This document shows, piece after piece, positions 806 to 22,444 of a stretch of DNA of 49,695 nt. Origin of the DNA: Deltaproteobacteria bacterium (lineage in GTDB: Bacteria > Desulfobacterota > Desulfobulbia > Desulfobulbales > SURF-16); assembly GCA_029933005.1 (NCBI GenBank), contig JAOZOY010000014.1:1-49695 (forward strand). Reading direction: 5' to 3'. Numbering within the stretch: position 1 is the first letter of the stretch; each line of letters begins with the position of its first letter. The notes beneath the pieces are model-generated. The model had not been told where the DNA came from. It was given only the letters and a program-made list of their open reading frames with translations, and ran no database searches. The translations under genes and the position numbers were made by a program.

Positions 806-3800
806 TTATACCTCTTTCGAGCCGCCGGCCACCGTTGTTACAGCGCCAAAGGCCTCGATTTGGGAATTAATTTGTTCATTGGTAAATCCGGCCATGGAAA
901 TTGCAAAAGTCGGACAGCGTGACGCGCAGATTCCACATCCCTTACATGAGGCGGCAATGGTCTCCGCCTTTTTCTTTTTGCCTATCTTAAGCATCTGTAT
1001 AGCCTGATAAGGGCAGAGACTGGCGCAGATGCCGCAGCCGATACAGGTCTCTTTATCAACGCTAGAGACAATGGGAGCGACCGAGACATACCCTTTGACC
1101 AGTGGAATTGCAGCCTTTGCCGCCGCCGCCTGGGCCTGAACAATGATTTCGTCCAAAGGCTTTGGTGAATGAGCCAGGCCGCAGACATAGACGCCGTCAA
1201 CAGGGAGTTCAACCGGACGGAGCTTGACATGGGCTTCCAGATAAAAGTCATTGGCGTTCACCGGAACCTTGAGCAGTTGGGAAAGTTCCTTTGTACCCTC
1301 GGGAACAATTCCGACACTTAAAACAAGCAAATCAGGCTCGATTGTAACGTCTTCTCTCAAGATGGGATCAAAATAGGAAACAATGGTTTTATTTCCTTTT
1401 TTAAGAACTTCAGGCTTTTCTTCAACTGTGTATGGCGTAAAGATGACTCCCTTTTCCCTGGCCTCACGATATGCATCCTCGGCATAGCCATAGGTGCGCA
1501 TGTCGCGATAGAGGACAATAATCTGGGAGTTCGGATTAATCTCCTTGATTTTCAAAGCATTCTTGACGGCATGGTTGCAACAGATCTTGCTGCAATATTG
1601 CAGATCATCGCCTCTGGAACCGGCGCATTGAATCATGACAACGCTATCCGGAGCGCGATTCTTTGCCCGGCCTGCCAGCCGAGTTTCCAGATCCTTCTGG
1701 GTCATGACCTTTTTGGATTGACCAAGGAGATACTTGTCCGGCCTGTGCTCTTTTCCGCCGGTGGCAATGATTACTACACCATGATCAATAGTCTGCTCAA
1801 CCTGTTTTTTTCCTTTTTTTGAAGAAATTACCGAGGAAAAATTACCGACAAAACCACTGATTGATTCCAGTGCGGCACTGGTCAGAACATCAATTTTTTT
1901 ATGTTTTTTGACCCGATCATTCAATTTTTTCAGCAGATCAACGGTATTTTCACCCTTGATTGTCGTTTTAATCGACTGCAGATGTCCGCCGAGCTTGCTG
2001 CCTTTTTCGAGAAGAGTGCAATGAAAACCCTGATCAGCCAGACTCTCGGCCGCTGTTAACCCGGCAACCCCGCCGCCAATAATCAGGGCCTGGGAATTAA
2101 CCGGAACGGTCTGCTCCTTGAGGGGCTGGATTAAACGGGCTTTAGCCACGCCCATGCGAACTAGATCCATGGACTTATCTGTGGCCGCATCAGGTTCATT
2201 AGCATGAACCCAGGAACACTGGTCACGGATATTCACCATTTCAAAGAGGCATCTGTTCAGCCCGGCATCCTTCAAAGTTTCCTGGAAAAGAGGCTCGTGG
2301 GTTCGGGGAGAACAGGCGGCAATAACGACACGATTGAGATTATGCTCTTTGATTTTTCCAACGAGCATCTCCTGCGCATCCTGGGAACAGCTGTATAAGG
2401 TGTCATCGTGATAAACAACATTTTCCATGGTTCCGGCATAGTCATCGACTTTATGGACATCAACCGTACCGCTGATATTGATGCCGCAATGACAGACGAA
2501 AACACCGACTCGAACTTCATCATCTACTTTAATTTCCTGCTCATCGGGATAGGATTTATGGACAATTCCCTTGCCGCGCTGCTGTTTCAACATGGCGGAC
2601 GCAATACCCGCCGCCGCGCTGGACTGGGTAACGCTCTCGGGAATATCCTTGGGGCCCTGAAAGGCGCCGGCAACAAAAATTCCCTTCCGGCTGGATGCCA
2701 GCGGAGCAAAAGAGCTCGTCTCGCAGAAATCATATTTATTCAATTTAAAATCAGCGATTCGGGACAGATCCCGGGCGCTTTTCGGCGCATCAAGACCAAC
2801 TGAGAGGACCACCATATCAAAAGGATCGAAACGATGGGTTTCATCCATGGTTGAGTAGGTCAATTTTAACTGTTTGCCCCAAGGCATGACATCAGCAACC
2901 TTGGCCCGGACAAACTTGATGTCAAATTGTTCAACCGCCCTTGTCTGGGCCGCATCAAAATCCTTGCCCTGGGTCCGCATGTCCATGTAGAAAATGGTAA
3001 TCTCACACTCGGGATCATGCTCTTTAGCCACCATGGCTTCTTTAATAGCATACATGCAGCAAACGGATGAGCAGTAACCGTTGTCGCAGCCGATATCGCG
3101 AGAACCGACGCACTGAATAAAAGCAATTTTTTTCGGATGACGTCGGTCGGACAGACAACGGACTTCACCCTCAAACGGGCCGGATGGATTGAGCAGTCTT
3201 TCAAATTCAATACTGGTCACCACATCGGGATGCTTGCCGTAGCTGTATTTTTCTAAAGCACTTTCCGGAACTCGGCCAAAACCGGGGGCCATAATCACAG
3301 CACCGATATTAATTTTACGTTCAATTGGTTTCTGAGTAAAATCAATGGCATTACTGCGGCAGACCGGCACACAGATCTGGCAGGTATCATGCTTTAAATA
3401 CAGACAGGCCGCCGGATCAATAAAATAGGTCGCAGGCACAGCCTGGGGATAATCAATATGAATGGGCCGGGTAATGGCCAGGCCTTCGTTATATTCATCA
3501 ACAAGATGACGGGGACAATACGTGGTACAAAGACCACAGGCCGTACACTTGTCGGCGTTAATATAACGCGGGTTTAAGCGAATTTTTGCGGAAAAATCTC
3601 CCGGCTTTCCATCAAGGGAAAGAAAGTCGGCATTGCTCAGAATTTCAATATTTGGAGACCGACCGGCCTCAACAAGCTTCGGAGCAAGAATTCAGAGCGA
3701 ACAGTCGTTCGTCGGAAAAGTCTTGTCAAGTTGGGCCATTGCGCCTCCAACCGCCGCAGACTTTTCAACCAGATAGACGTAATAGCCAAGCTCGGTCAAA

Positions 3801-4003: not shown

Positions 4004-7000
4004 TCAAACAAGTTCAACTTTGATCGCGCAGACTTTATATTCTGGGCTGCGCGACAAGCGATCAAGGCTGTTTATAGTCAAAAGGTTAACCGGAGCCTCC
4101 GCGAAATGATAAGGAATAAAAACGGTTCCTTCCTGGGATCGTTCGGTTATGGTCGTCCTGATTTTGATCTTGCCCCTTCTTGAGGTGATCTGAAGCCAGG
4201 ATTTTTCTTCAATGCCAAGTTTATCTGCGTCTTCCTGACAAATTTCAGCAAAGGCCTCGGGACTGATTTCTTCAATACCCGGAGTTTTTCTGGTCATGCT
4301 GCCAAAATTATACTGGGCCATTTCACGACCGGTAGTGAGTATCATCGGATATTCCTCATCCGGCGGTTCGGAAGGCCCGGTGTAATCCTCGGGGATGAAA
4401 AGTCCCCTGCCCCTGGTGAAGCTGCCAATATGGAGGACCGGGGTTCCGGGATGCTCCTCATCCGGACAGGGCCACTGAATACCCTCTTTCTCGATACGTT
4501 CATAACTGATCCCGCTGTACTGGGGCAGCAGAGATGAGATTTCTTCAAAAATTTCCCTGGGACTGTCATACTTCATGTTGTAGCCCATTTTCTGGGAGAG
4601 ATCACAGATAATCTTCCAATCCGGTCTAGCCTCTCCCGGCGGATCAACGGCCTTGCGCACCCGCTGCACCCGCCTTTCCGTGCAGGTGAAAGTGCCGTCT
4701 TTCTCAGCATAACAGGCAGCCGGAAGAACAACATCCGCCATTTTGGCTGTATCAGTGAGAAAAATATCCTGAACGACCATGAAGTCGAGTTTTTCAATAG
4801 CCTTTATGGCATGGCCGGCATTGGGATCGGCAAGAACAGGATCCTCGCCGAAGACATACAATCCCCTGATATTCCCATCCAGGATATCATCCCAGACTTC
4901 TGTGGCCGGTTTGCCGAGTCTCCGTGGCAATCTTACTTTCCAGAGCTTTTCATATTTGGCAAAAAATTCATCATTGGTCAATCCAACATAGCCTGGCAGA
5001 GTATTGAAAAGTGCCCCCATGTCGCAGGCACCCTGAACATTGTTCTGACCCCGTAATGGATTAACCCCGCCGCCGGCAACTCCGAGTTTTCCGCAGAGCA
5101 TGGCCAGATTGGCGATGGATTTGACATTATCCGTACCGGAAGCGTGATGGGCCAGACCCATGCCATAATAAATGGCAGATTTTTTGCCGGCGCCGGCATA
5201 AAGCCTGGCTGCTTCAAAAAGCTGATTCTCGGGTATTCCTGTTATTTCGGAGACATAAGACGGCGTGTATTTTCTTGTAACGCTCTCAAGTTCCTCAACA
5301 TTTTCTGTTCTTTCCTTGACAAACTCTTTATCCCAAAGACTTTCTTCAAGAATGATATGACAGAGACCATTTAACAGAGCCACATCCGTGCCCGGTTTGA
5401 TCCTGAGCCAGAGATCGGCCTGGTTGGCAAAATCAGTTCCACGAGGATCAACTACAATCAGCTTGGCGCCTCTGGCAACGGCCTGGTGCAGACGCAAGCC
5501 AATGGTGGGATGCCCGGTATCGGCATTAGAGCCGATCATGAAAATCACATCAGCCTGACCAATATCACTAATTGAGTTGGTCATGGCGCCGCTTCCGAAG
5601 GAGATGGCCAGACTGGCCACCGTGGGAGCGTGTCAGAGACGAGCGCAATGATCAATATTATTAGTGCCGATAGCCGCGCGCATGAACTTCTGCATGAGAA
5701 AATTTTCTTCATTGGTTGCACGGGCACAGGAAAATCCAGCTATGGAAATCGGCCCATACATGGCCTTCAGATCAAAAAAATTCTTGGCGACAACCTCAAG
5801 AGCCTCATCCCAGGTTGTTTCAACCAACTGATTATTTCTGCGAATCAGAGGCTTTGTCAAGCGGTCCTTATGCTGAATGAAATTAAAACCGAAGCGGCCC
5901 TTTATACAGAGAGCTCCATAGTTGGGCGCCTGCTCGGGATCAGCAGTTACCTCTATGATGGTTCCGCCCTTGACGTTAAGGATGATTTGACAGCCCGCGC
6001 CACAATAGGGACAGGTAGATCGGACCTTACGCACGCTTTCACTGACGACAGGAACAAGGAAGTCTTTTTTATTCAAAGCGCCGGTGGAGCAGTTATCTAC
6101 GCATTTGCCGCAGGAGACACAGTTATCCTTAAAAGTCAGCTTTAAATCCAGTGGAATACCATTTTCACCCATTGCACCACTGCTGATCTCAATGGCATCA
6201 TATTCACAGCTGTTCATGCAGCGCTGGCAGAAAATACACTTATTCAGGTCGACCACTATGTTGGGGTGGGAATCATCCTTCTGATACATAGGCTTTGTGC
6301 CCATGCCCGTTTTAAGGATATTAACCCCGTAATCGATATCAAGGGGTTTAAGGTTACAACGATCAAAGGCTGTACAGCCGCAGGAAAGACAACGTTCGGC
6401 TTCCCTTATTGCCTGTTTCTCGGTATAACCGAGATTCACTTCATCAAAATCCTGAATCGCGATTTCTGGCGGTCTTCCCGGCATTTTTTCCCGCAGCTTG
6501 ATATTAATTCCGTCAAAATTACTTAACCTGACATCATCAAAAGACTTGCCTCGGGTAAAATTGAAACGGCTTTCAGCCGGGGATTTGTCTTCATCCATGA
6601 CAAAGGCGTGGATATTTTCGGCAGCCCTGCGAGCCGAAACTACGGCTTGAATGACAGTACGGGGACCATTAACCGCATCACCTGCGGCAAAAACTCCGGA
6701 CACACTTGTCAGAGAATCACGAGGTGAAGCTTTGATGGTATTTTTCGGAGAAAGAAGCAGTTTTTCTTCCAGTTCTCCGCCGGAAAATGACTCTTCGCTG
6801 ACTATCAGTCCAAGAGAAGACACAACCGTATCCACCTCAAGGATATTGCTTGAGCCTGGAATAGCTTCCGGTAATCTGGTGCCACGTGCATTTGGCTCAC
6901 CCAGTCTCATCCGAATCAGTTCAACATTTAATGATTTATCTTCGTTTTCCGTAATGGATACCGGAGAAGCCATGAGCAGGAATTGAACTCCTTCCTTTTC

Positions 7001-8116
7001 AGCTTCTTTAATGACCCTTTGGTTGGCCGGCATCTCTTCCTGAGCCCGGGGATAAATTATCGTCACCTCATCAACACCGGAACGTAGCAGGGTACGAGAA
7101 GTTTCCATGGCGATATTATTGCCGCCGATCACTGCGGCCCGCCGACCATAATCTTTTTTAATCCGGCAGGCTACATCTTTAAGAAATTGAGCGGCATGAA
7201 GGACGGACGGCAAAGTTGCACCGGGGATTTCAAGTTTTTTGTCAGCACTGGTCCCTATGGCCAGCAAGATAGCGTTATATCCCTGGTCTTTTAGATCCTG
7301 AAGTGTGAAATCAGTACCCCATTTCTGGCTGAGACGGACGGAAATTCCCATCCTGAGAATCATATTTGTCTCAAAATCCAGAACATTGCGGGGAATTTTA
7401 TATTCGGGAATGCCGTACTGCAGCATGCCGCCAAGCTTGGGCATGGACTCCATGACTGTCACATCATGACCCTTTCGAGCCAGATAATAGGCACTGGTAA
7501 GACCTGCCGGACCACCGCCGATCACTGCCACCCGTTTGCCTGTAATCTTGGCCCGGGGAATTTTGAGATCGATGTGATTGGTCATGGTCCAGTCAGCAAC
7601 AAAACGTTTCAAATGATTGATTGAGACCGGTTCATCCACCAGAATACGGCGGCAGCGCGTTTCACAGAAACGTGGACAGACGCGTCCGACGGAAAAAGGA
7701 AAAGGGTTTCTCTCATAAACCAGGCGCAGAGCTTCTTCGTACTGGCCCTTGCTGACATGGGCGATATAGCCCTGAACATTGATCTGGCCGGGACAGGTCA
7801 GGTTGCAGGGGGCCTTGCAATCACCGAAATGATGACTGGAAATTCTTGCCAGTTTTTCCTGGCGAAGATTTTTCAAATTAGCAGAATCTGTCACCACGAC
7901 CATGCCATCCCTGGCCAAGGCAACACAGGAACGGACAGGATCCGCCATGCCCTCAATTTCAACAAGGCATATTTCACATGGTTCTTCCGAATTCTTGCCG
8001 TTGATGCGGCATAAAGTCGGAATAAAGATGTCCGCGCGCCGGGCAACCTCAAGAATGGTCAAGCTTTCCTCGGCAACGATCTCCAGACCGTTTATTTTTA
8101 ACGTTATCGTAGACAT
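4004..8116 (-). CDS. fdhA: Formate dehydrogenase catalytic subunit fused to N-terminal 2Fe-2S and GltD/NfnB-like flavin modules; selenoprotein (UGA at 5633-5635 read as Sec), about 1370 aa
   Basis: ORFs 5633..8116 and 4004..5620 share a frame. Joined reading: ...[28 protein letters not shown]..., the FdhA active-site motif. N-terminus has NuoG-like ferredoxin, GltD-like motif VAVIGGGPAGLTSAYYLARKGHDV and two 4Fe-4S motifs. Confidence 0.95.
5603..5621 (-). promoter_or_regulatory. Candidate bacterial SECIS hairpin of fdhA
   Basis: GGUGGCC-AGUCU-GGCCAUC: 7-bp stem with one G-U pair, loop AGUCU, 18 nt between UGA and loop; similar to the E. coli fdhF element. Confidence 0.8.
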
Positions 8117-8280: not shown

Positions 8281-9636
8281 CTATGCTGCCGGCTTCCACT
8301 CTTTCAAAAAGGCCGGTAGATGACCGGCTTCACGCGGGCCGATTGTAATCGTCCAGTCGGACAGTTCTTCCTCAAGTTCACCCTTGATCGTCGCCAGGTA
8401 ACCGGGAATAATCAATTCACGGTGTTTGATCTTATCTTCAATTCCGGACTTCTTGATAAACTGAGCGATAAGATCAGCGCCGAATTTGCCGGCGGCCCAG
8501 GCAGTCAAAACCGACAAACCTTCCGTATCCTTAATCAAAAGCCAGGATGGAACATTGCTGCCTTCAACTTCACCTGAGACAATAAAGTAGGTCAGAGAGA
8601 AATTACAGGTGATCATTACTGGTGAATTCTCGTCCGGTCCGTTGATTGAGTAGATATCTTCCTGTACCACCATGGGACGCTGGGGATCTGTAAAGATATT
8701 GAGACGTTCAAGTAACAAGGGAAAAAGAATATCGCCCTGAAGATCGGAGAGTACGACAATTCCGGCATATTTGGCAATCAGAACCGAAGTGATCATCGCC
8801 TCCATGAGAGGATCATCAGTCATCTCACAGGGGAACATAATAGTGGAAAAACCCAGGGGTTTGAACTTTGAATTAATAGCAGCCCTGCGCGCAACAATAT
8901 TATCCTCCAGGGCAGCCCGCAGGGTTCTTGCGCCGGTATCAATAACCATATCCTTAAGGCCTGCTCCAGTCAGTTTCTCAGAAAGAGCAATTGTCTCGTC
9001 AAGGTTTCCTCCCTTGAGTCCGAGAACACATCCCTGCTCCCTGGCCAGATCCGCCATGGCATCGGAATTATCCTGGTTGGCACCAAAAAGAAGCGGCTTT
9101 CTGTCGCCGCAGAGCTTCGTCCCTTGAACAAGGGTTTCCGAGTTGTCACTCATGAGAATCAGGTTGGCGTCTTCAGCTGTATCAAGGACTTTTTGAACAA
9201 GGCCGGTAAAGGCTGCCTGATCACCATCAGCATCCTTGATCGCAATGAGATCGGCTTTCATGAAGACCCCGACCCGTTCATAGCGAAGCGTTTTAAAACG
9301 GTCAATGCGGCCGTCGACATCGCTGTCCGACATTGATGTCGAGATAAGAACAGCGATACCAGTCGGGTTTTCAAAACGTTTTTCATGGCGAAAAAGACAT
9401 GTTTCGCCTCCGGTAGTAAAGGCTGAATCACCTGCTCCGATTTTAATTGTACGTATCGGCGGCGCTGAAGCTTCACCGATTGTTTCCTTTGCTTCGTCAC
9501 TGACATAAGGACATTCTTCAATTTCGATCTGTCCGGCAGCCACCTTCATGGCAAAGGCAAGGCAGGTCGGAATCCCGCACTCCCCGCAATTCTTCTTGGG
9601 CAGCATTTTAAGTATTTGAATACCGGTTAATGCCAT
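8281..9636 (-). CDS. acsC: CODH/ACS corrinoid iron-sulfur protein large subunit (gamma)
   Basis: 451 aa; N-terminal 4Fe-4S motif KKNCGECGIPTCLAFAMKVAAGQ; adjacent to acsB and the acsD fusion. Confidence 0.95.
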   Translation of the reverse strand: MALTGIQILKMLPKKNCGECGIPTCLAFAMKVAAGQIEIEECPYVSDEAKETIGEASAPPIRTIKIGAGDSAFTTGGETCLFRHEKRFENPTGIAVLISTSMSDSDVDGRIDRFKTLRYERVGVFMKADLIAIKDADGDQAAFTGLVQKVLDTAEDANLILMSDNSETLVQGTKLCGDRKPLLFGANQDNSDAMADLAREQGCVLGLKGGNLDETIALSEKLTGAGLKDMVIDTGARTLRAALEDNIVARRAAINSKFKPLGFSTIMFPCEMTDDPLMEAMITSVLIAKYAGIVVLSDLQGDILFPLLLERLNIFTDPQRPMVVQEDIYSINGPDENSPVMITCNFSLTYFIVSGEVEGSNVPSWLLIKDTEGLSVLTAWAAGKFGADLIAQFIKKSGIEDKIKHRELIIPGYLATIKGELEEELSDWTITIGPREAGHLPAFLKEWKPAA

Positions 9637-9723: not shown

Positions 9724-11928
9724 TTACATTGCCGCTTCCATTTCAAGAGCCGGATGACCTTTTTCTTTCAGGAAAGCAAGAACCTCTTCTTCAGTGGTGC
9801 CCACTTCCTCATCGGCAATCATGTCGAAAAACTCAGGCATCCCTTCTTCCTCACAGCGTGCCATCAGCTTTTCTCTTAACTCTTCCTTAAGCATCTTCGG
9901 CAACCAGACAACTCTTTTTAATCCGCCTTCAGATTTAAAAAGTTTGCGGCTGGTCAGATAATGCTTGCTGACTCCCATAAAACCAGGGGTCTGGGCGCCG
10001 CCACCGGCCATACCGGCCAGAGAGGTGAACTTCATGCCTGAAGGAGTCATTCCCATGTAATCACGATTAACCACCATAATACCGTTACATTGAGGTAACA
10101 TGGCGGAAATACACTCAAAGCAACCACAGGCAGTCATTGGATTGGTCATCAAGGAGTAGCAGCTCACATTGGGAACCGCACCGCGGGAGGCCTGATTGAC
10201 AAAGTCATTGATTCCGGAAAATTCGCCTAAATTTTCATCCAGACATTCGCCTTTTTCAATGGGCTGGTTCGGGCCGGTGGGATTAATCTGATAAGATGCC
10301 TTGCCGTCCAGCCAGTTATAGGCACCGCACATGCCGACCCTTTCAGGGGTGATAACGCAGACATGACTGGGTGCGAAAGATTGACAGAGAGTACAGGAGT
10401 AAAAAATATCCTCACTTTCATCAGTCATGCTGCCAAGCCTGAGATCACGCTCGGCATAGACGCCCCTGGCCAACTCAACGACCTCTTCTACGGTTTCCTG
10501 AACCGTTGAAATTTTCACTTGGACTTTATCAAGAATTGCTCCGAACTCCTGGTGAATCTTTCCATGAAGTACTTTGCCTATGTGCTTGAAAGAGAATCCT
10601 TTCTCAACAGCGGCCTTTCCAATTCTGATCCACATAATGTTACGCTGGCCAATATGCATAATGCCCTGGATATAGTTGATCAGATGATGAAACTGACGTT
10701 CAAGAATCGGCTCAAAATCAGACTGCATTTCACGGCCGGCCACTTCAACCAAAATGGAAATGGGTAAATTTTCACCCTGTTTAATATCGCAGATATCCTT
10801 GCCTTCAAGGGTAACCTCTCCATCCTGGATCTCACTCATATCTTTGGAGACCAGTACCTCAACACCGGTGGTACGGCCACCACCGCATTCCATGAAAAGA
10901 TCATCCTTTCTGATCCGTTCACCTTCGAAGGCCGGACCAAAGGAAAGGGGAATATCGATTTTTGCGACATTCACTTTCAGGCCGCGAACCTCAATGGCTT
11001 TCTGAACAATTTCATCATGAGGGATCCTGCTGACAACATGCTCGTAGGTGCATATACCGGTGGGCAGAACCTCGGGAATGTCGTAATCGGATATCGTGGG
11101 AAAGCCCCAGTTGATCGCTCCGGCGGCATTTGCATACCACTCATCACTTACCGGGCCAAAGGCCATGACAAAGGCAAAGGTCCGGTCTTTGTTGTAAATC
11201 AAATTTCCCTTATAATCACCCGGCTTGATGCCGCCAAAGGCAAGAGCGACACGACAGGCGAAGCCGATAGCAAAAACAACGGATGTATAGCTTTTACCAA
11301 AAGGTACCAGACGGGTGTTCCAGCCAACCTGGACATCATTTTTGACCAGTTGCTCCGCCATGTTCAAGCCTTCAGACTGATCATGCATGAAGATGTAGAG
11401 ATTCTTCTCCTGAAGCTCAAGGGCAATCTTACTGGCAACCTCTTTATCCATGGGAGTTCCACAGATCGCCGCAAAACCCGGGGCGGATCCATCAACAAAT
11501 TCAACACCGCGTTTTCGGAAAACTACATCATCGGCAGCGCCAAGCCAGATATTGTCGGCTAAGGGATCTTCCGTCTTTGTATAAAAATTAGGTTCATTGA
11601 GATAACGGATCGCCTCAAACATCTCCTCGGCAAAGTAGGTCGCCATGCCGGCATCAAGGGCCGGAGCAAGATATGGCAGCCAGACCTTTTCCGTTACTTT
11701 GGAGGGGAGCAGTTTCCGGGTTTCAATGAATATGTCCTTCATGTCTCCGAGTTTTTCCACCTTGGCGCCAAGCATGGAATAAATAATCGGAAGATAATAG
11801 GCTGTGTTTGGAAAGGAGACTTCTTGATCAGCTCCGTATTTTTTCAGGGCTTCCTCGAATTTTTCTTCAGCCATGTTCACAATATTTTGTGCGCCTCTGA
11901 TGGCTGCTGAGCAGATGATTTTAGACAT
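9724..11928 (-). CDS. acsB: Acetyl-CoA synthase, CODH/ACS complex alpha/beta catalytic subunit
   Basis: 734 aa; AcsB-type sequence including FYSCTLCQSFAPSHVCVITPERVGMCGAYNWLDGKAS and MTACGCFECI. Confidence 0.96.
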   Translation of the reverse strand: MSKIICSAAIRGAQNIVNMAEEKFEEALKKYGADQEVSFPNTAYYLPIIYSMLGAKVEKLGDMKDIFIETRKLLPSKVTEKVWLPYLAPALDAGMATYFAEEMFEAIRYLNEPNFYTKTEDPLADNIWLGAADDVVFRKRGVEFVDGSAPGFAAICGTPMDKEVASKIALELQEKNLYIFMHDQSEGLNMAEQLVKNDVQVGWNTRLVPFGKSYTSVVFAIGFACRVALAFGGIKPGDYKGNLIYNKDRTFAFVMAFGPVSDEWYANAAGAINWGFPTISDYDIPEVLPTGICTYEHVVSRIPHDEIVQKAIEVRGLKVNVAKIDIPLSFGPAFEGERIRKDDLFMECGGGRTTGVEVLVSKDMSEIQDGEVTLEGKDICDIKQGENLPISILVEVAGREMQSDFEPILERQFHHLINYIQGIMHIGQRNIMWIRIGKAAVEKGFSFKHIGKVLHGKIHQEFGAILDKVQVKISTVQETVEEVVELARGVYAERDLRLGSMTDESEDIFYSCTLCQSFAPSHVCVITPERVGMCGAYNWLDGKASYQINPTGPNQPIEKGECLDENLGEFSGINDFVNQASRGAVPNVSCYSLMTNPMTACGCFECISAMLPQCNGIMVVNRDYMGMTPSGMKFTSLAGMAGGGAQTPGFMGVSKHYLTSRKLFKSEGGLKRVVWLPKMLKEELREKLMARCEEEGMPEFFDMIADEEVGTTEEEVLAFLKEKGHPALEMEAAM

Positions 11929-11986: not shown

Positions 11987-14677
11987 TTAACCCACCAAAC
12001 CGTCAATCATGGATTTGGCCAGGTTAACTGCCTTGGGATGCCTCATAATCAGAAGTTCTCCTCCGCACAACATCATACAACTTGCGGTAATGGCCTCCAT
12101 CATAATGCCCCGCGTTTCCTGATCACCGATCATCTCGTCGGATGGTAAACGACACTCCTTGGCTTTCCAGACCTCACGCCCCAGATTACAGACAAACGGG
12201 ACCTGAAGTTTCTCATCCTGTTGAGTCAAAGCGGCAATTCTGATTCTCTCCATGACGGAATATGTATATTCAATGCCATAGCCCAGAGCACCGATGGAAG
12301 GATCGACCAGGATATTATCAAGGGATACTCCCAGATTTTCCATGAGAATATTAAGCTGTTTGGCCAGGTTGACATCAATGGGCGAGGCTGCGACAAGAGG
12401 ATGCTGAAAGGCCATGGCCGTTGCACCGAGGGAACGATAATTTGCATCCGTCAACGGAGCCAGGCACACTTTCTTGTCACCAATCATGGCGGTAAGCTCA
12501 CGCAGAGTATCGGTGTCCTTTTCACTGTTTTCACAGCCCCAGACAATGACCGGCACATCGATATTATTGACGATGTCGGCCGCGGTTTTTGCAGCTTCGA
12601 CAGAATCACGATTCAGACCGTTGGGATCCGTGCTGATCAGGGAGATGCATAGGGCCTCGGCCTGGTATTCATTCACACACTTTCGAGCCCAGGCCAATGG
12701 ATTATCAAGCACATCCTCAAAATGACGAGTCAAAGTTGATGGCCACCCTTCCGGTTTCACATCGACAATATCCATGGCGATAAGTGGCTTGTTTCCCATC
12801 TCACCCTCAAAGAGATAAAACGGCATGGACGAAGAACCACCGACTTTAACCTCGTTACCCGGATTACCAAGAACCGTTTCACGAATTTGACCCGTGTAAT
12901 TAACCTTATAAGTTGTTTCAGGGATCTTGCTTGCCCGTTCGGCCAGTGGTGTTTCCTCGTGCTTCAGTGGTGCAACCGCCATAGATGGCGGGGCGGCTGT
13001 TTTCGTCTCTTCCGCAGCTTTTTTCTCTGCCGCTTTTTTGGCCTCATCAGCAGCCTTAGCTTCTTCAGCGGCCTTCGCTTCAGCCGCTTTTTTTGCTTCC
13101 TCGTCAGCCTTGCTTTCTTCAGCGGCTTTGACTTCAGCGGCCTTTTTTGACTCCTCGGCAGCCTTGGTTTCTTCAGCGGCTTTGACTTCAGCGGCCTTTC
13201 TTGACTCCTCGACAGCCTTGGCTTTTTCAGCTGCTTTCACTTCGGCGGCCTTTTTCGCCTCATCAGCGGCCTTAGCCCCTTCAGCGGCTTTGGCTTCCGC
13301 CTCTTTTTTTGCTTTATCAACAGCCGGTGCCGGCGCTGCGGGAGCGGCTGTTGATACTTGCGGTTCTTTTTTCAATACAGCTTCAGCACCGGCAAAATTC
13401 GACAGGGCCTCAAATTGATCGTCTGACAGGCCAAAGGCTTTTTTAAGAGAGTCAAGACCCATGCGAACAGACTCTAACGCCACCTGACGTTCTTTTTCAT
13501 TCATCTCATGTTCTCCTGCATCATCAAGTTCTATGGTTTCCTGCTCAGCCCCGGGTACTGCCGTTACAGGCTGCCGTACTGCCCGAGCCCTTAGTTCGGC
13601 GATCTCATCCTTCGCTGCAGCTATAATTTTTTCAGCCTCTGCCCTGGCCTGAACAAGAATTTCATCACGATCAGCAGCCGTTTCTTTTACAGTCTCAGCC
13701 GGACGAACTTCAATAACTTCTTCCGCTGCTTTTTCAACCGTAACAACAGGCTCATCTTCCAGTACGGGACGTTCTTCGATCCCAGCTCGTTTAACAATTT
13801 CCGGAACAGCTGTCTCCCATTCAATGGCCATGATATGGACACCGGAAACACCTTCTATTTCCTTCACCTGGTTGATAATATCGACACAGATATTGATACC
13901 TTCATCCTGTTTGTCTTTGGCATCCTGCATTCGTTGCAGAACATCATCGGTGACATCCATGCCCGGCACAAATTTTTTCATGTAGCGGGCCATGCCAAGG
14001 GATTTCGGCGGTGTTACGCCGGCAAGAATATAAACTTTTTCATGAAGACCGAGATCACGGGCCATTTCCATGAATTTGGCAAATCTTTCTACATTGTAAA
14101 TGATCTGGGTCTGAACAAAGTCAGCGCCGTTGGTCACTTTTTTCGCCAGTCTTGCTGCCCTGAATTCAAGCGGATAAGCAAAGGGGTTCGCAGCGCAGCC
14201 AAGAAAAAAATGAGGCTCGGCCGATTTAATCGCTTCACCGCACTGAAATTTCTTGTCATCCCGCATGGTTTTGACCATGCCGAGCATCTGGATGGAATCC
14301 ATGTCAAAAACGCCCTTGGAACCGGGATGGTTGCCGAATTTCTGATGATCACCGGTGAGACAGAGCAGATTTTTCAAACCCAGGGCCGAGGCCCCGAGCA
14401 GATCACTCTGCATACCAATTCGATTTCGGTCACGGCAGGTCATCTGAATGACGGGTTCAACACCCTCCTGCTGGGCGATAAGCCCGGCGCCAATAGATGA
14501 CATTCGGACTATGGCTGTCTGGCAGTCCGTAATATTCACCGCATCAACATGTCCCTTGAGGATACGCGCCTTTTCCCGTACCACCTCGGGGTTACCGCTT
14601 TTTGGCGGCCCAAGTTCACCTGTAACCGCGAATTCTCCTGCGGTCAAAATACGCTCTAATCGACTACCCGATTTCAT
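11987..14677 (-). CDS. Fusion of methylenetetrahydrofolate reductase (N-terminal) and CODH/ACS delta subunit AcsD (C-terminal), joined by an A/K/E-rich repeat linker
   Basis: 896 aa. Residues ~1-300 MetF-like (ELGPPKSGNPE, QMTCRDRNR, NLLCLTGDH). C-terminal third AcsD-like (NPLAWARKCVNEYQAEALCISLISTDPNG, ILVDPSIGALGYGIEYTYSVMERIR). Confidence 0.9.
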   Translation of the reverse strand: MKSGSRLERILTAGEFAVTGELGPPKSGNPEVVREKARILKGHVDAVNITDCQTAIVRMSSIGAGLIAQQEGVEPVIQMTCRDRNRIGMQSDLLGASALGLKNLLCLTGDHQKFGNHPGSKGVFDMDSIQMLGMVKTMRDDKKFQCGEAIKSAEPHFFLGCAANPFAYPLEFRAARLAKKVTNGADFVQTQIIYNVERFAKFMEMARDLGLHEKVYILAGVTPPKSLGMARYMKKFVPGMDVTDDVLQRMQDAKDKQDEGINICVDIINQVKEIEGVSGVHIMAIEWETAVPEIVKRAGIEERPVLEDEPVVTVEKAAEEVIEVRPAETVKETAADRDEILVQARAEAEKIIAAAKDEIAELRARAVRQPVTAVPGAEQETIELDDAGEHEMNEKERQVALESVRMGLDSLKKAFGLSDDQFEALSNFAGAEAVLKKEPQVSTAAPAAPAPAVDKAKKEAEAKAAEGAKAADEAKKAAEVKAAEKAKAVEESRKAAEVKAAEETKAAEESKKAAEVKAAEESKADEEAKKAAEAKAAEEAKAADEAKKAAEKKAAEETKTAAPPSMAVAPLKHEETPLAERASKIPETTYKVNYTGQIRETVLGNPGNEVKVGGSSSMPFYLFEGEMGNKPLIAMDIVDVKPEGWPSTLTRHFEDVLDNPLAWARKCVNEYQAEALCISLISTDPNGLNRDSVEAAKTAADIVNNIDVPVIVWGCENSEKDTDTLRELTAMIGDKKVCLAPLTDANYRSLGATAMAFQHPLVAASPIDVNLAKQLNILMENLGVSLDNILVDPSIGALGYGIEYTYSVMERIRIAALTQQDEKLQVPFVCNLGREVWKAKECRLPSDEMIGDQETRGIMMEAITASCMMLCGGELLIMRHPKAVNLAKSMIDGLVG
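12992..13309 (-). repeat. In-frame 54-nt (18-aa) tandem repeat in the metF-acsD linker, about 5.9 copies
   Basis: Units: KKEAEAKAAEGAKAADEA / KKAAEVKAAEKAKAVEES / RKAAEVKAAEETKAAEES / KKAAEVKAAEESKADEEA / KKAAEAKAAEEAKAADEA / KKAAEKKAAEETKTAA. Confidence 0.95.
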
Positions 14678-14952: not shown

Positions 14953-16941
14953 CTACGCCGGGCCGTGGCAACCCACATCGGTCAGACCAGTTCCGGAGGT
15001 CAGATCACGCCGCATCTCCATGTCAAAAAGGACACGTTCGCGCTTCTTGTCAATGCCAAGAGCAACGCGTTTCTTGTCGATATGGGCAATCATTTTCCGG
15101 GCCAGCTTGACCGGATCTTCTTCGCTATCCCACATGCCGCCATACATCTCCTCCATGTCCTCATAAAGATATTTTTTCATTAGCTTTGATCCGCTGACAG
15201 GAAGATTCTGGAAGATAACATACACACCGCTTGTGGCAAAATATTCACCAATGGATACTGCTTTTTCACTCATCCATAAAGGCGCCGTCCCTGCAGCGGG
15301 CAGATCCGAGATATCATCTCCCAGGCCTCCTTCCTCGACCATGGCGGATGCGGCAATCAGGATACGGCTGTTATCAACACAGGATCCCATATGCAGTACC
15401 GGCGGCATACCCACGGTCTCACAGACCTCGGCCAATCCCGGACCTGCGTATTTAGAGGCTGCCTCGGGATTAAGCAGTCCTGCCCGCCCCAAAGCCTGTG
15501 CGGCACAGCCGGTGGCAAGAACCAGAACATCGTTTTTTATCAGTTCCTTGGCAACGATGACATGGACGTCATCAGGCAGTTTGTAATTTTCACAGCCGAC
15601 AACAGCGCCAACGCCGCGAATACGGCCATTAATAATATTATCGTTTAATGGCCGGTAACTGCTGCGGAAGCGGCCGCCCAGAATATAGTTGATCGTTTCA
15701 TGACTGAAACCGACCACGACATCAAGTTTGGTGTCCTTCGGGATATGGCAAGCACCCCGTTTCTTGAAGTTACCAATGGCTCTTTTAAGGATGTCTTTGG
15801 CAGAATTCAGAGAATCTTCCTCATCAAACTGAAGATGGACCGCATCCGGCATCTTGGCCCGGTAATTGGTGGTGATGATTTCCGTATGAAAATTCTTGGC
15901 CACCTGGGCAAGTGACTGCATGACGCACTGGATATCAACAACCATGGCCTCAACAGCGCCGGTCGCCAATACCATTTCCTGCTGAATAAAGCTGCCTGCA
16001 ACCGGAATACCGCGCCGCATGAGGATCTCATTGCCGGTGCAGCAGACTCCTACCAGATTCACGCCCTTGGCGCCAACCTTTTTACACAGGGCTTGAATAT
16101 CCTCCTGGCGGGCTGCCATGCAGAGTGATTCAGCCAAAAGCGGTTCATGACCGTGAACAGCAACGTTGACCATATCCTTTTTGAGTACACCTAAATCAAC
16201 CATGGCCCGGATCGGCACCGGAGTGCCGAACATGATGTCGGTCAGGTCGGTGGAGAGCATAGAGGCGGACCAACCGTCAGCCAGGGCGACTCTGGCACCC
16301 TGGAGCATGATGTTTTCATAATGCTGATCTACACCCATATGGGTCCGATGCATGGTTTCCGTCACCTCACGGTCAATACCACGGGGCTCAACGCCAAGTC
16401 TTTTCCAGAGCTCCTGTCTTGTCTTCGGCGCCCTTTTCAGCATAACCTGAGTGCCCTGCTGTTTCCCAAACTCGGCCAAGGCCTTTTCTCCAAGCTCCAG
16501 AGCAATTTCATTTTTATCCCTGTCCTCGGTTTCAATTTCAAACACCTTGGCAAGCATGTGAAGTTTTTCTTCATCCTTGATCTCATGGGGAGTCTCGCCT
16601 TTGGCCGTGGCAATAAAACCAAAAATCATCTCACGGGCATGATCCGCATGAGCTGCAGTACCTGCCGCTATTGTTCTTGCATAATTTCTCGCGGCCACGG
16701 TTTCAGCAGTAGCACCACATATGCCGATCATTTCTTCCACTCCGTCAATGATCTGGCATGGCCCCATATTACAGTTTCGGCAACAGGTTCCGCCGGAGCC
16801 GAAAAGGCAGGCTGACATTCCTCTTGACTGGACACGGTCATAAGCTGTGACCACATCTTTAGAGACATCACTGCCAAGAACTTCAATCGTTGACGAACAG
16901 GTTAAATCGGTACAGCCTTCACATCCTGTAACTCTTGTCAT
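14953..16941 (-). CDS. cooS: Anaerobic Ni carbon monoxide dehydrogenase catalytic subunit
   Basis: 662 aa; CooS-like cysteine motifs FGSGGTCCRNCNMGPCQI, LVGVCCTGNEILMRRG, VLATGCAAQALGRAG, LHMGSCVDNSRI. Confidence 0.96.
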   Translation of the reverse strand: MTRVTGCEGCTDLTCSSTIEVLGSDVSKDVVTAYDRVQSRGMSACLFGSGGTCCRNCNMGPCQIIDGVEEMIGICGATAETVAARNYARTIAAGTAAHADHAREMIFGFIATAKGETPHEIKDEEKLHMLAKVFEIETEDRDKNEIALELGEKALAEFGKQQGTQVMLKRAPKTRQELWKRLGVEPRGIDREVTETMHRTHMGVDQHYENIMLQGARVALADGWSASMLSTDLTDIMFGTPVPIRAMVDLGVLKKDMVNVAVHGHEPLLAESLCMAARQEDIQALCKKVGAKGVNLVGVCCTGNEILMRRGIPVAGSFIQQEMVLATGAVEAMVVDIQCVMQSLAQVAKNFHTEIITTNYRAKMPDAVHLQFDEEDSLNSAKDILKRAIGNFKKRGACHIPKDTKLDVVVGFSHETINYILGGRFRSSYRPLNDNIINGRIRGVGAVVGCENYKLPDDVHVIVAKELIKNDVLVLATGCAAQALGRAGLLNPEAASKYAGPGLAEVCETVGMPPVLHMGSCVDNSRILIAASAMVEEGGLGDDISDLPAAGTAPLWMSEKAVSIGEYFATSGVYVIFQNLPVSGSKLMKKYLYEDMEEMYGGMWDSEEDPVKLARKMIAHIDKKRVALGIDKKRERVLFDMEMRRDLTSGTGLTDVGCHGPA

Positions 16942-16958: not shown

Positions 16959-17846
16959 TTATAGAAGCCCGGCAGCAGTCTTTGCCGCCTGGACCGTATT
17001 TTTCATTAACATGGTGATGGTCATGGGGCCAACGCCGCCTGGTACTGGCGTAATTGCTCCAGCTTTTTGCTTAACAGACTCAAAGTCCACGTCACCAGCC
17101 AGGATTGCCTTGCCGTCTTCGGTTTTGCCGATTCGGTTTACGCCAACATCAAGAATCACAACGCCTTCCTTAATCTGGTCGGCCTTAATCAGGTTCGGTA
17201 CGCCGACTGCGGCAATAAGAATATCGGCCCGTTTTGTATGAAAATCCATATCTTTTGTTCTGGTATGGCAGATAGTTACCGTGGCATTGCCGGCCGGTCG
17301 TTTCTGCAGCATCAGGTTGGCAATGGGCTTACCGACAATATTGCTGCGGCCGATGACCACACATTCCGCGCCGCTGGTTTCAATATTGTTACGCTCCAGA
17401 AGCTCCAGCATGCCATGGGGAGTACAGGGCAGAAAGCAGTCCTCGCCAAGCATCATTTTGCCGATATTGACAGGATGAAAACCGTCAACATCCTTATTTG
17501 GATCAATTGCATAAAGAACCTTATGCTCGTTAATATGCTTGGGCAATGGCAACTGGACAAGAATACCGTTAATCTTGTCATCTTTGTTACATTTTTCAAC
17601 AAGGGCCAGGACCTCTTCTTCAGAGGTGTCCGCAGGGAGATCATAACGTTCGGAATACATCTCCAGAGCCTTGCATGTTCTCTCCTTGGCGCCGACGTAA
17701 ACCTGGGAGGCAGAATCACTGCCCACCAGTATGGTCACCAGACCGGGAACAATACCATGTTTTTCCTTCAGCTCTGCAATCTCTGCTTTTAACTCCTCAC
17801 GGATAGCCTTGGCGGTTTCAGTTCCGCTGATAATCTTGGCAGTCAT
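16959..17846 (-). CDS. folD: Bifunctional methylenetetrahydrofolate dehydrogenase/cyclohydrolase
   Basis: 295 aa; VGSDSASQVYVGAKERTC, GILVQLPLPKHI, VIGRSNIVGKP, PGGVGPMTITMLM. Confidence 0.97.
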   Translation of the reverse strand: MTAKIISGTETAKAIREELKAEIAELKEKHGIVPGLVTILVGSDSASQVYVGAKERTCKALEMYSERYDLPADTSEEEVLALVEKCNKDDKINGILVQLPLPKHINEHKVLYAIDPNKDVDGFHPVNIGKMMLGEDCFLPCTPHGMLELLERNNIETSGAECVVIGRSNIVGKPIANLMLQKRPAGNATVTICHTRTKDMDFHTKRADILIAAVGVPNLIKADQIKEGVVILDVGVNRIGKTEDGKAILAGDVDFESVKQKAGAITPVPGGVGPMTITMLMKNTVQAAKTAAGLL

Positions 17847-18155: not shown

Positions 18156-20366
18156 TTAGCTTACCTTGCGCGTCGTGTTGCTGGCAAGCTTAACAATAAT
18201 ATCATTGGCCTGGCCAAGCCGTTCAATGATGGTTGAGAAAAGATGCTTGGCAACATCGGGATGTTTTTCAATAATTTCCATGATTTTATCTCCAGGAAAC
18301 CGCTTGACCGTACAACGACCCTTGGCAACAATGGAGGCTGACCTTTCTTCACCGGAAATGGCGGCCATTTCACCAAAGTAGTCATTGGGCTGATGGATTT
18401 CGGCAATTTTTTTACCGTCGACGATAACCATAACTCCGCCGAGGATCAACTGGAAGAAATCAATATCCGTGTTGCCCTGACGGATGATATAATCTCCGTC
18501 CTCGTATTTTTCCACATCCGGATTGACCAGATAGGCGGGCAGACTTTCCTTGGTAATCACTGTTTTTTTCAGGACCTCTTCAATGGAGATAACTCCTTGT
18601 GAGGCCTTGAGCAGAGCGGCATCCCGCAGGGGGGTCATGCCTTCCTGGATGGCAATTTTTCTGAGTTGGTCTTCCGGCACTTCAGCGCTGATGGCCTTGG
18701 CCACCTCCTCGGTGACCTCCATTAATTCAAACAGACCCACTCTGCCCTTGTGACCGTTTCCCCTGCATTTGGAGCAGCCTTTAGGACCATAAAGCTGCAG
18801 ATCAGGAATCTGCTGTTCGGAAAAACCCATTTCCAGCAGGCTGGACGTGTCAGGCAAATCAATCAGGGTTTTACAATGCGGACAGAGTCGCCTGCCAAGC
18901 CGCTGGGACTGTACCATGGTAATGGCTGAAGACAGCATAAAGGGCGGAATACCGATATCTACCAGACGACCGATGGTGGCCGCGCAATCATTGGTATGCA
19001 GGGTGGAAAGAACAAGATGGCCGGTCATAGCCGCCTTGATCGCAATTTCAGCAGTTTCTATATCGCGAATCTCACCCACCATGATGATGTCGGGATCCTG
19101 ACGCAGAAAGGCTTTCAAAGCGGCGGCAAAGGTCATACCCACTTCTTGATGGACATTAACCTGGTTAATGCCCTTAAAGTTAAATTCAACAGGATCTTCA
19201 GCAGTTAAAATTTTTATGGCATCATCATTTAATGAATTCAATACTGAATACAAGGTTACCGTCTTGCCGCTGCCGGTTGGGCCGGTCACCAGAAGCAACC
19301 CCTGGGGCTTGGCCACACATCTTTTAAGCATTTCAAATGTTTCAGGCTCAAATCCCAGCATGGTCAGATCAACGTTCAGAGAACTCTTGTCAAGAATACG
19401 CAGGACTATACTTTCGCCAAAGAGAGTTGGTAGGGAGGAGACGCGAAAATCCACCACTTTGCTCCGTCCCACCCGCATCTTAATCCTCCCGTCCTGGGGA
19501 ACCCTGCGCTCAGTAATATCAAGGGAGGCAAGAATTTTTAACCGTGAAGTCAGAGCATTTTTAATGGATAACGGCAGATTCATGGATTTATACAACGATC
19601 CATCCATCCTGTAACGAATCTGCAATGTCTTTTCATACGGTTCGACATGAATATCACTGACACCGTCTGTTACCGCCTTCACCAGAATACCGTTGACCAG
19701 CTTGATGATGGGAGCGTCCGAAGCCGCATACTGATCAGGCCCCTCTTCCTCATCCAGGGTCTCGATGGCCATATCATCAGCGGCCTCGGCAGCAAGAGAG
19801 CCAAAATCGTCGATGTTGGTTACTTCTTCTTCCTCTTCCTGCTCCTCGACATCAAGCAGTTCTTTATACTCTTCGTCACTGATTTGATAATATTTTCTAT
19901 AAGCCTCAATAATATCCTTCTGGGTGGCGACACAGACGGATAACCCTTTTTTGACTGCGGTCTGCAAACCTTCCACGGCAGAGGTATCGGTAGGTTCTGC
20001 CATGGCAACCTGCAGGGCTTTGCCTGTCATGCGCAAGGGCAGAGCCATGTACTTTTTTACAACGTCATAGGGAATGGCCTTGAAGACATCCGGACTGGGC
20101 GGTTCCTGGGAGATTTTAACCGCCGGAAAATTATAGGATCGACTGAGGACGTTTAGAATCGTGTCATCGTCAATATATTCGAGCTTAAGCAGAATACTGC
20201 CCAGACTCAGCTTGTTTTTTTTCTGTATGGATTGGGCATGTTCAAGCTGATTACTGGTGATTTGACCTTCCTTGCGAAGGATTTCACCGATTTTTAGCTT
20301 TCCGGCCCCGGACTGATCCTTGACGGATGCTTTTAAATTCGATTTTGCAGCAGCAGGATTTGGCAT
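18156..20366 (-). CDS. GspE/PilB-family secretion/pilus ATPase with C-terminal cyclic-nucleotide-binding domain
   Basis: 736 aa; T2SSE N-domain; Walker A LLLVTGPTGSGKTVTLYS; zinc motif CPHC...CSKC; C-terminal EDGDYIIRQGN...DYFGEMAAISGEERSASIVAKG typical of cNMP-binding domains. Confidence 0.93.
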   Translation of the reverse strand: MPNPAAAKSNLKASVKDQSGAGKLKIGEILRKEGQITSNQLEHAQSIQKKNKLSLGSILLKLEYIDDDTILNVLSRSYNFPAVKISQEPPSPDVFKAIPYDVVKKYMALPLRMTGKALQVAMAEPTDTSAVEGLQTAVKKGLSVCVATQKDIIEAYRKYYQISDEEYKELLDVEEQEEEEEVTNIDDFGSLAAEAADDMAIETLDEEEGPDQYAASDAPIIKLVNGILVKAVTDGVSDIHVEPYEKTLQIRYRMDGSLYKSMNLPLSIKNALTSRLKILASLDITERRVPQDGRIKMRVGRSKVVDFRVSSLPTLFGESIVLRILDKSSLNVDLTMLGFEPETFEMLKRCVAKPQGLLLVTGPTGSGKTVTLYSVLNSLNDDAIKILTAEDPVEFNFKGINQVNVHQEVGMTFAAALKAFLRQDPDIIMVGEIRDIETAEIAIKAAMTGHLVLSTLHTNDCAATIGRLVDIGIPPFMLSSAITMVQSQRLGRRLCPHCKTLIDLPDTSSLLEMGFSEQQIPDLQLYGPKGCSKCRGNGHKGRVGLFELMEVTEEVAKAISAEVPEDQLRKIAIQEGMTPLRDAALLKASQGVISIEEVLKKTVITKESLPAYLVNPDVEKYEDGDYIIRQGNTDIDFFQLILGGVMVIVDGKKIAEIHQPNDYFGEMAAISGEERSASIVAKGRCTVKRFPGDKIMEIIEKHPDVAKHLFSTIIERLGQANDIIVKLASNTTRKVS

Positions 20367-20680: not shown

Positions 20681-22444
20681 CTAGAATACGCCTTTAACCT
20701 TGCCGGTTTCGACATCAACGTCAACACGGCGGTAGGCCGGATCAGAAGCGGTACCCGGCATCAGGCTGATGGCACCGGCAACCGGCACAACAAATCCTGC
20801 TCCTTTATAGGTGAGGATATCCTGAATAGGCAGGGTCCAACCCTTAGGCACACCTTTGAGTTTCGGGTCGTGGGAAAGAGAAAGATGGGTTTTAACCATG
20901 CAGGTTCCCATTTCCTTCAGGTCCGGATCAGCCTCCATGCGTTTCAGCTTAACCCGGGCCTCGGGAGTATAGCTGACGCCGTCAGCTCCGTAAACCTCTT
21001 TGGCAATAAGTTCGATGCGCTGGGAAAGAGGGGTATCGAGTTCATAAAGAAACTTGAAATCATTGGGCTCTTCACAGGCATCCGTGACTGCGTCGGCAAA
21101 TTCAAGGGCACCGTCACCACCATGCTCCCAGTGGCGTGACAGGGCCACCCGGGCTCCGGCAGCCTCACCAATACGGCGGATGGCGTCAATTTCAGCATCA
21201 GTATCAGTGTAAAATGCATTAATGCAGACAACTGGATTAATACCGGCTTTTTTAACCGTTTCGATGTGATGAATCAGATTCTTGCAGCCTTCCTCAACCC
21301 AGCCGACATTTTCTGAATTATACTCTTCAGGCATGGGCTTACCCGGGATCGGAATCGGGGCGCCGCCATGGCATTTCAGGGCGCGGATTGTGGCAACAAT
21401 CACGGCGCAGTTGGGTTTGAGACCGCTATAGCGACATTTCAAGTTCCAAAATTTCTCAAAGCCGATGTCAGCGCCAAAGCCGCTCTCCGTGACGTTGTAA
21501 TCAGCCAGTTTCAGAGCTACCCGGTCAGCAATAACCGATGACTGGCCAATGGCGATATTGGCAAATGGTCCGGCATGTACCATAACAGGCTGGCCTTCCA
21601 GGGTCTGCAGCATGTTGGGATTCAGGGCCTCAACCATCCAGGCGGTCATGGCTCCGTCAACTTCCAGATCAGCGGTGGTGATGGGTTTGTCCTGCTTATT
21701 ATAAGCGACAACGATTTTGCCGATACGTTCGCGCATGTCTTTCAAGTCGGAGGCGACCGCAAGAATAGCCATAATTTCAGAACTGACCGCAATGGCGAAC
21801 TTGGACTGCATGGTAAACCCGTCCATTTTGCCGCCAAGACCGATGGTGATATTCCGCAGAGACTGGGCACAGAAATCCATGATCCAGCCGAACTCAACCT
21901 TTTTGGGATGAATATCGAGCCGTTTTAGATTCCGCAGGGCCAGTTGTTCATCGGTATAATTTGCCTCATGCTGCATACGGGCGGTAAGAGCCACCATGCC
22001 GAGGTTATGGGCATTCATGATGGCGTTAATGTCACCGGTGAGGCCCAGGGAAAACGGGGTCAGCGGAATACACTGGGCCAGACCGCCGCCAGCGGCACTG
22101 CCTTTGATATTCATGGTAGGGCCGCCGGAAGGCTGACGAATGGCACCGATAACACTCTTGTTACGCTTGCCGAGTCCTTGAACCAGCCCCATGGCGCATG
22201 TGCTTTTCCCTTCGCCAAGAGGAGTGGGTGAAATGGCCGTTACATCGACATATTTCCCATCCGGCTTGTCTTTAAGGCGCTCCATGATTTTCCGGTAATC
22301 AAGTTTTGCCACATAATGGCCATAGGGAAGGAGCTCTTCCTTTTCCAGGCCCAGGGCATCGCCCAATTCGTAAACTGTTTTCATCCGGGTTTCCGCATCA
22401 GCCGCGATTTCCCAATCAGCATGTTTGGTTGGATCAAGAGCCAT
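20681..22444 (-). CDS. fhs: Formate-tetrahydrofolate ligase
   Basis: 587 aa; [24 protein letters not shown] and [19 protein letters not shown] motifs. Confidence 0.97.

Follow-up and report, generated by a model that had tools for sequence, protein, structure and literature searches.

A widespread MetF-AcsD fusion gene with a conserved putative internal start probably encodes two nested proteins

Introduction

The Wood-Ljungdahl pathway is usually pictured with freely diffusing methyl-THF. In the 49,695-nt stretch of DNA that we analyzed (the window), a single minus-strand gene, metF-acsD (11987..14677), joins the last folate enzyme of the pathway to a subunit of its corrinoid protein. This locus raises the question of what such a fusion does, how it arose and how many proteins it makes. 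The initial annotation considered the fusion unusual in character, and our analysis bears this out.

A methylene-THF reductase joined to the small subunit of the corrinoid protein

The fusion gene starts at an ATG, has no internal stop and encodes 896 aa (97.0 kDa). Pfam searches of this ORF matched MTHFR (PF02219) to residues 6-299 (E = 1.1e-39) and CdhD (PF03599) to residues 601-841 (E = 3.6e-41), and in a profile search AcsD-family models covered residues 589-894 (best E = 3.7e-139). In an AlphaFold2 model of the fusion (pTM 0.46), two barrels are predicted with confidence and the helical linker between them with low confidence. A Foldseek search with this model recovered the small subunit of a corrinoid iron-sulfur protein (CFeSP; 4djd_D, E = 1.2e-29) as well as an MTHFR (8eac_A, E = 2.1e-13). 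The Pfam, AcsD-model and fold matches thus agree with the initial reading of one uninterrupted 896-aa frame carrying an MTHFR and a CFeSP small subunit. Within the MetF domain (residues 6-299; 13781..14662, minus strand), as delimited by Pfam and alignments, the catalytic-type residues E21, D110 and Q191 are invariant in 15 fusions, where D110 and Q191 were placed by alignment to human MTHFR and E21 by motif. Judged from its sequence, this part is an MTHFR barrel with the active-site Glu, Asp and Gln, and reductase activity is predicted. The AcsD part (residues 590-896; 11990..12910, minus strand), assigned by profiles and fold match, is a CdhD-family barrel near the solved CFeSP small subunits, for which corrinoid methyl transfer and pairing with AcsC are predicted.

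Between the two domains lies a linker of 286 aa (residues 304-589; 12911..13768, minus strand) that is rich in Ala (26%), Glu (19%) and Lys (13%) and mostly predicted helix, as had been proposed at first sight. It includes a 54-bp tandem repeat array of 5.5 copies (13029..13325, minus strand) encoding an A/E/K-rich helix at residues 468-551. Linker length in 59 fusions has a median of 276 aa, with extremes of 106 and 461 aa, and the sole portion recognizable across lineages is a conserved helical element at residues 392-435 (13373..13504, minus strand), which also forms the N-terminus of the separately encoded AcsD at two loci of sister genomes, L080 and L083. Sequence outside this element is poorly conserved and, given this and the range in length, the precise geometry of the linker is unlikely to matter. 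In some other fused lineages, TPR-like repeats are visible by eye in the linker sequences.

Distribution and origin of the fusion

The AcsD domain was found in 18 of the 22 genomes of the window's family, in a frame nearly always of 870-910 aa, and in 256 of 394 genomes in an even sample of the phylum. By our own count, about 46 of the frames in the phylum sample are 720-1174 aa long with at least 53% AcsD identity, and every one of these whose sequence was read carries an N-terminal MetF. Fused frames of this kind, about 715-1174 aa long, occur in dozens of independent genomes, isolates among them, including Desulfurivibrio sp. AMeS2, Desulfocapsa and Desulfobulbaceae MAGs, Thermosulfurimonas dismutans S95, one Thermodesulfobacteriales MAG and one Caldimicrobium MAG. 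The initial annotation had raised the concern that the fusion might exist in one assembly only; its recurrence in so many independent genomes rules out an assembly error or frameshift. Broken copies are few and coincide with a contig end (L056), a run of Ns (L058) or fragmentary MAGs (L137, L149 and L109).

A tree built from 90 AcsD domains groups every fusion in a single clade (SH-aLRT 100) that spans a Desulfobulbales-like order and Thermodesulfobacteria-like lineages, including T. dismutans S95. The fused or unfused label requires three changes on this tree, for which the simplest account is a single gain, a reversal shared by L080 and L083, and an odd MAG contig, L059. At L080 and L083, metF and acsD are neighboring yet separate genes, and because their AcsD opens with the helical element found mid-linker in the fusions, they look like the product of a later fission. 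The existence of this separate-gene lineage also means that covalent linkage is dispensable. The third case, L059 from genome G016, has an acs cluster that lacks cooS, metF and the linker and whose acsB is 48% identical to that of the window; it could be a chimeric contig, the genome being 7% contaminated, or a genuine replacement. In Ca. Desulfaltia, which falls outside the fusion clade, and in a related MAG, metV, metF and acsD are adjacent but separate, an arrangement that plausibly shows the pre-fusion state.

Such adjacency, together with the drift of the linker in sequence and length and the one later fission, would also suit a near-neutral relic, in which the stop between neighboring metF and acsD genes was lost, co-expression is the sole effect and the old acsD start merely survives within the ORF. 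We consider this account unlikely, since a long open linker in dozens of genomes and a single clade-wide origin favor retention by selection, and the synonymous constraint described below shows maintenance of at least the internal start. Retention of the fusion suggests a benefit, which may lie in local methyl-THF, electron delivery or stoichiometry.

The Wood-Ljungdahl cluster and the partners of MetF

The genes around the fusion, all on the minus strand, comprise fhs, a GspE-like gene, folD, cooS, metF-acsD, acsB, acsC, formate dehydrogenase and hdrA. Profile matches identify the formate-THF ligase gene fhs (20681..22444), folD (16959..17846), the CO dehydrogenase gene cooS/acsA (14953..16941), the acetyl-CoA synthase (ACS) gene acsB (9724..11928) and acsC, encoding the CFeSP large subunit (8281..9636), so that acsB, acsC and cooS are co-encoded with the AcsD part of the fusion. 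An hdrA2-like gene (806..3439), also assigned by profile matches, is a candidate electron module for MetF. The formate dehydrogenase gene (4004..8116) encodes a FAD/NAD-binding (GltD-like) module fused to the catalytic subunit and contains an in-frame TGA (5633-5635) that falls in the motif CARLUHAPTV; the product is probably a selenoprotein with selenocysteine at this TGA. The GspE-like gene (18156-20366, between fhs and folD) encodes a GspE/PilB-type ATPase with a C-terminal cyclic-nucleotide-binding domain, and its position beside fhs and folD recurs in many members of the family and order.

Elsewhere among the fused lineages, the gene immediately before the fusion is metV, which sometimes overlaps it and usually comes with hdrA and with hdrC- and mvhD-like genes; acsE is located after acsC, and in most of these lineages it neighbors the fusion. 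Within the window's order, metV and acsE are both unlinked to the acs cluster. In the window's own genome, metV is found with mvhD- and hdrC-like genes on contig C84, while acsE sits near a RACo-like activator gene on contig C74; HdrA is encoded in the acs cluster, and HdrB was not recognized in the clusters read. Absence of MetV has been reported for Ca. Desulfobulbus rimicarensis (PMC7117923) but is ruled out for the window's family, where 21 of 22 genomes encode MetV and the gene is present but unlinked. The MetF of the fusion shares 57-69% identity with the MetF encoded by metV-metF clusters of Chloroflexi, Planctomycetes and Bacillota. This identity, the upstream metV of other lineages and the near-complete retention of MetV place the MetF of the fusion, at the level of sequence, in the MetV-partnered class described in PMC8515935. 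Two further genes of the window's genome deserve mention. On contig C84 (L108, 8321-9886) is a 521-aa MetF-MetV fusion paralogue that occurs family-wide beside the stand-alone metV, and contig C114 (L009, 600-1412) encodes a second protein of the pterin-binding, methyltransferase-like type, which has about 27% identity to AcsE and occurs in a few family members.

These partners invite the alternative that the fusion docks an Hdr/MetV electron module on CODH/ACS, so that its main gain would be in electron traffic, through ferredoxin held in common with CODH or reactivation of cobalt, and not in local methyl-THF. In most fused lineages whose region was read HdrA is encoded in or beside the acs cluster, metV and mvhD/hdrC-like genes adjoin the fusion in many, and six-subunit ('6S type') MTHFRs are Hdr-coupled (PMC8515935). 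However, the attachment is at AcsD, the methyl-transfer subunit, and neither at CooS nor at ferredoxin, in the window's genome a RACo-like activator is encoded near acsE, and no HdrA was found in the stretch read around the short-linker fusions L085 and L086, leaving electron traffic as the main gain a rather doubtful prospect. The likeliest role of the fusion is instead that of an MTHFR powered by MetV and Hdr proteins and tethered to the CFeSP/ACS complex.

A conserved, probable start site inside the linker

The first reading of the sequence did not include a feature that lies just before the helical element, where the gene reads GCA GGA GAA CAT GAG ATG AAT GAA AAA GAA. The codons GCA GGA GAA contain a Shine-Dalgarno (SD) sequence, AGGAG (13513..13517, minus strand), and an in-frame ATG (M392; 13502..13504, minus strand) follows 8 nt after it as the predicted internal start codon. 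Initiation here would yield a second product of 505 aa (54.1 kDa; 11987..13504, minus strand) consisting of AcsD with the helical element as its N-terminus.

All 37 distinct fusions of the order keep the glycine codon GGA, the ATG and the SD core GGAG, with the 7-mers GCAGGAG (26), GCGGGAG (7) and TCAGGAG (4). A codon alignment of 34 of these fusions contains 39 invariant glycine columns, in which GGA use has a median of 9% and reaches at most 38% in all but the glycine of the internal SD. In the same alignment, excess codon identity is highest at residues 383-395 (0.278, against a gene-wide median of 0.078). The second independent peak, at 0.181, falls on the true 5' start and so acts as a positive control. 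Relatedness among the rows inflates conservation throughout the alignment, an effect for which its other columns provide the control. The context is also that of a start: across the 37 order fusions the 12 nt after the internal ATG average 69% A, and the mRNA at this site folds less than about 98% of the windows of the gene (median fraction 0.017 in the order fusions). In GC3-rich genomes the codons at the internal start are among the most atypical of the gene, with 0 of 825 windows as extreme in L063 and 5 of 853 in L155; the codon-bias rank of the site is unremarkable in AT-rich and mid-GC members, the gene of the window included.

An SD by itself means little, because a strong one also precedes 72 of 1120 internal ATGs in the fusion genes, and under the same strict definition 30 of the 37 M392 sites count as having one, the GCGGGAG variants falling outside it. 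The case rests on synonymous conservation, accessibility and homology. In support of the last, the separate acsD genes of L080 and L083 start at the position homologous to the internal ATG, and at that position a Thermodesulfobacteria-like subclade (L081, L250, L252 and L254) has an SD and ATG in the fused frame, while in L082 the pair lies a few codons downstream. An SD and ATG are also present in L069 and L076 of the long-linker lineage. No suitable internal ATG was found in Thermosulfurimonas-like fusions, nor in the majority of the long-linker fusions examined, so the internal start is no universal part of the fusion. An apparent SD at M373-M376 in part of the long-linker lineage was set aside, as GAG GAG GCN is natural in coiled coils.

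An SD-like sequence and synonymous constraint can have other causes, such as a translational pause, an mRNA element or an overlapping gene. For this site we find such causes very unlikely in view of the combination of SD, correct spacing, invariant ATG, A-rich downstream sequence, open mRNA and homology to the true acsD start of L080 and L083. By these sequence criteria the fusion gene contains a conserved in-frame SD and start codon under synonymous constraint, and it probably makes two proteins, a 97-kDa MetF-AcsD and a 54-kDa AcsD. The evidence for the internal start is strong for the window's order and suggestive in the other lineages. The initial annotation expected one protein in place of two; the fusion itself holds, and a single product is probably too simple a picture given the AcsD-only form that the internal start predicts.

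A proposed tethered reductase with a supply of MetF-free AcsD

We favor, with reasonable confidence, a model of two nested products in which the full-length protein tethers MetF to CFeSP/ACS and the internal start adds AcsD. In the full-length protein, the MetF barrel would draw on MetV and on HdrA/HdrC/MvhD-type partners for the electrons that reduce methylene-THF, and the long helical linker would tie the barrel to AcsD, which with AcsC would make up the corrinoid iron-sulfur protein. The tether would thereby hold the reductase beside CFeSP and ACS, and methyl-THF made locally may be channeled to AcsE, which would still transfer the methyl group to cobalt. AcsD alone, carrying the helical element as its N-terminus, would be initiated at the internal SD and ATG, and the ratio of the two products would leave some CFeSP without MetF. 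It is an evenly balanced question whether one gene, by means of an internal start under selection, in this way programs a mix of CFeSP with and without MetF, and with it an adjustable metabolon of methyl branch and ACS in autotrophic sulfur bacteria.

The initial annotation suggested that methyl-THF is channeled to the corrinoid protein; as a substitute for AcsE this is not supported by the genomes: AcsE is encoded in 22 of 22 family genomes (80-100% identity), the window's own included, and its retention along with that of metV implies that the fusion has not replaced the methyltransferase. Direct transfer of the methyl group from MetF to cobalt is accordingly scarcely credible despite the physical linkage and the distance of acsE from the cluster in the window's order, since AcsE is so conserved and is encoded adjacently in most other fused lineages, and MTHFRs are not known to methylate cobalt.

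That so old a fusion of the last folate enzyme with the corrinoid protein has been retained is evidence from nature that the two branches of the pathway are physically coupled, and this in a major sulfur-bacterial group that includes cultured members. If the internal start is used, the stoichiometry of the fusion may be set by translation, which ordinary proteomics could address. The gene also carries a warning for annotation, as it may be entered as metF or acsD alone. In T. dismutans, TDIS_1006 is listed only as methylenetetrahydrofolate reductase (PMC4911364); by gene order, three genes before acsE (TDIS_1009), it is the MetF-AcsD fusion. In open-licence papers, the literature covered here, we found no description of the fusion or its internal start; an earlier description may exist elsewhere. 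The words 'fusion', 'fused' and 'metF' are all absent from the main text of a 2026 study of the Wood-Ljungdahl pathway in Desulfobacterota.

Comparison with known systems

The closest counterpart of the MetF part is the MetFV/HdrABC-MvhD enzyme of Moorella thermoacetica ('6S type', PMC8515935), which likewise has a MetV-partnered MetF, with metV and hdrA/hdrC/mvhD-like genes here in the cluster or elsewhere in the genome. Unlike in Moorella, MetF is here fused to AcsD, hdrB was not recognized in the clusters read and metV is unlinked in the window's order. The AcsD part has the barrel fold of the CFeSP small subunits AcsD/CdhD (PDB 4djd, 2h9a and 9fzy), to which the domain is 37-40% identical, and acsC adjoins it; the fusion differs in adding the helical N-terminal element, the linker and the MetF domain, and in its two predicted forms.

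Tethering of subunits of the same pathway is also seen with different partners. Other genomes of the phylum encode AcsD-CooS fusions (L087 5315-8686, L088 5676-8975 and L089 5887-9282) that are likewise joined by low-complexity, A/E/K/P-rich linkers and fall outside the MetF-AcsD clade of the tree. Many unfused AcsD in those other genomes of the phylum carry a C-terminal A/E/K-rich tail. AcsC-AcsE fusions (L080 3628-5958, L082 12126-14564 and L083 3458-5848) join the CFeSP large subunit to the methyltransferase, and L082 has both this and the MetF-AcsD fusion. For the nested products, the parallel is Cas11, made from an internal start in cas8 (PMC13199841 and references therein), where one gene likewise gives two in-frame products and the short one is a subunit of the same complex. 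The proteins are unrelated, and in the MetF-AcsD fusion it is the long product that bears the enzyme of the preceding pathway step.
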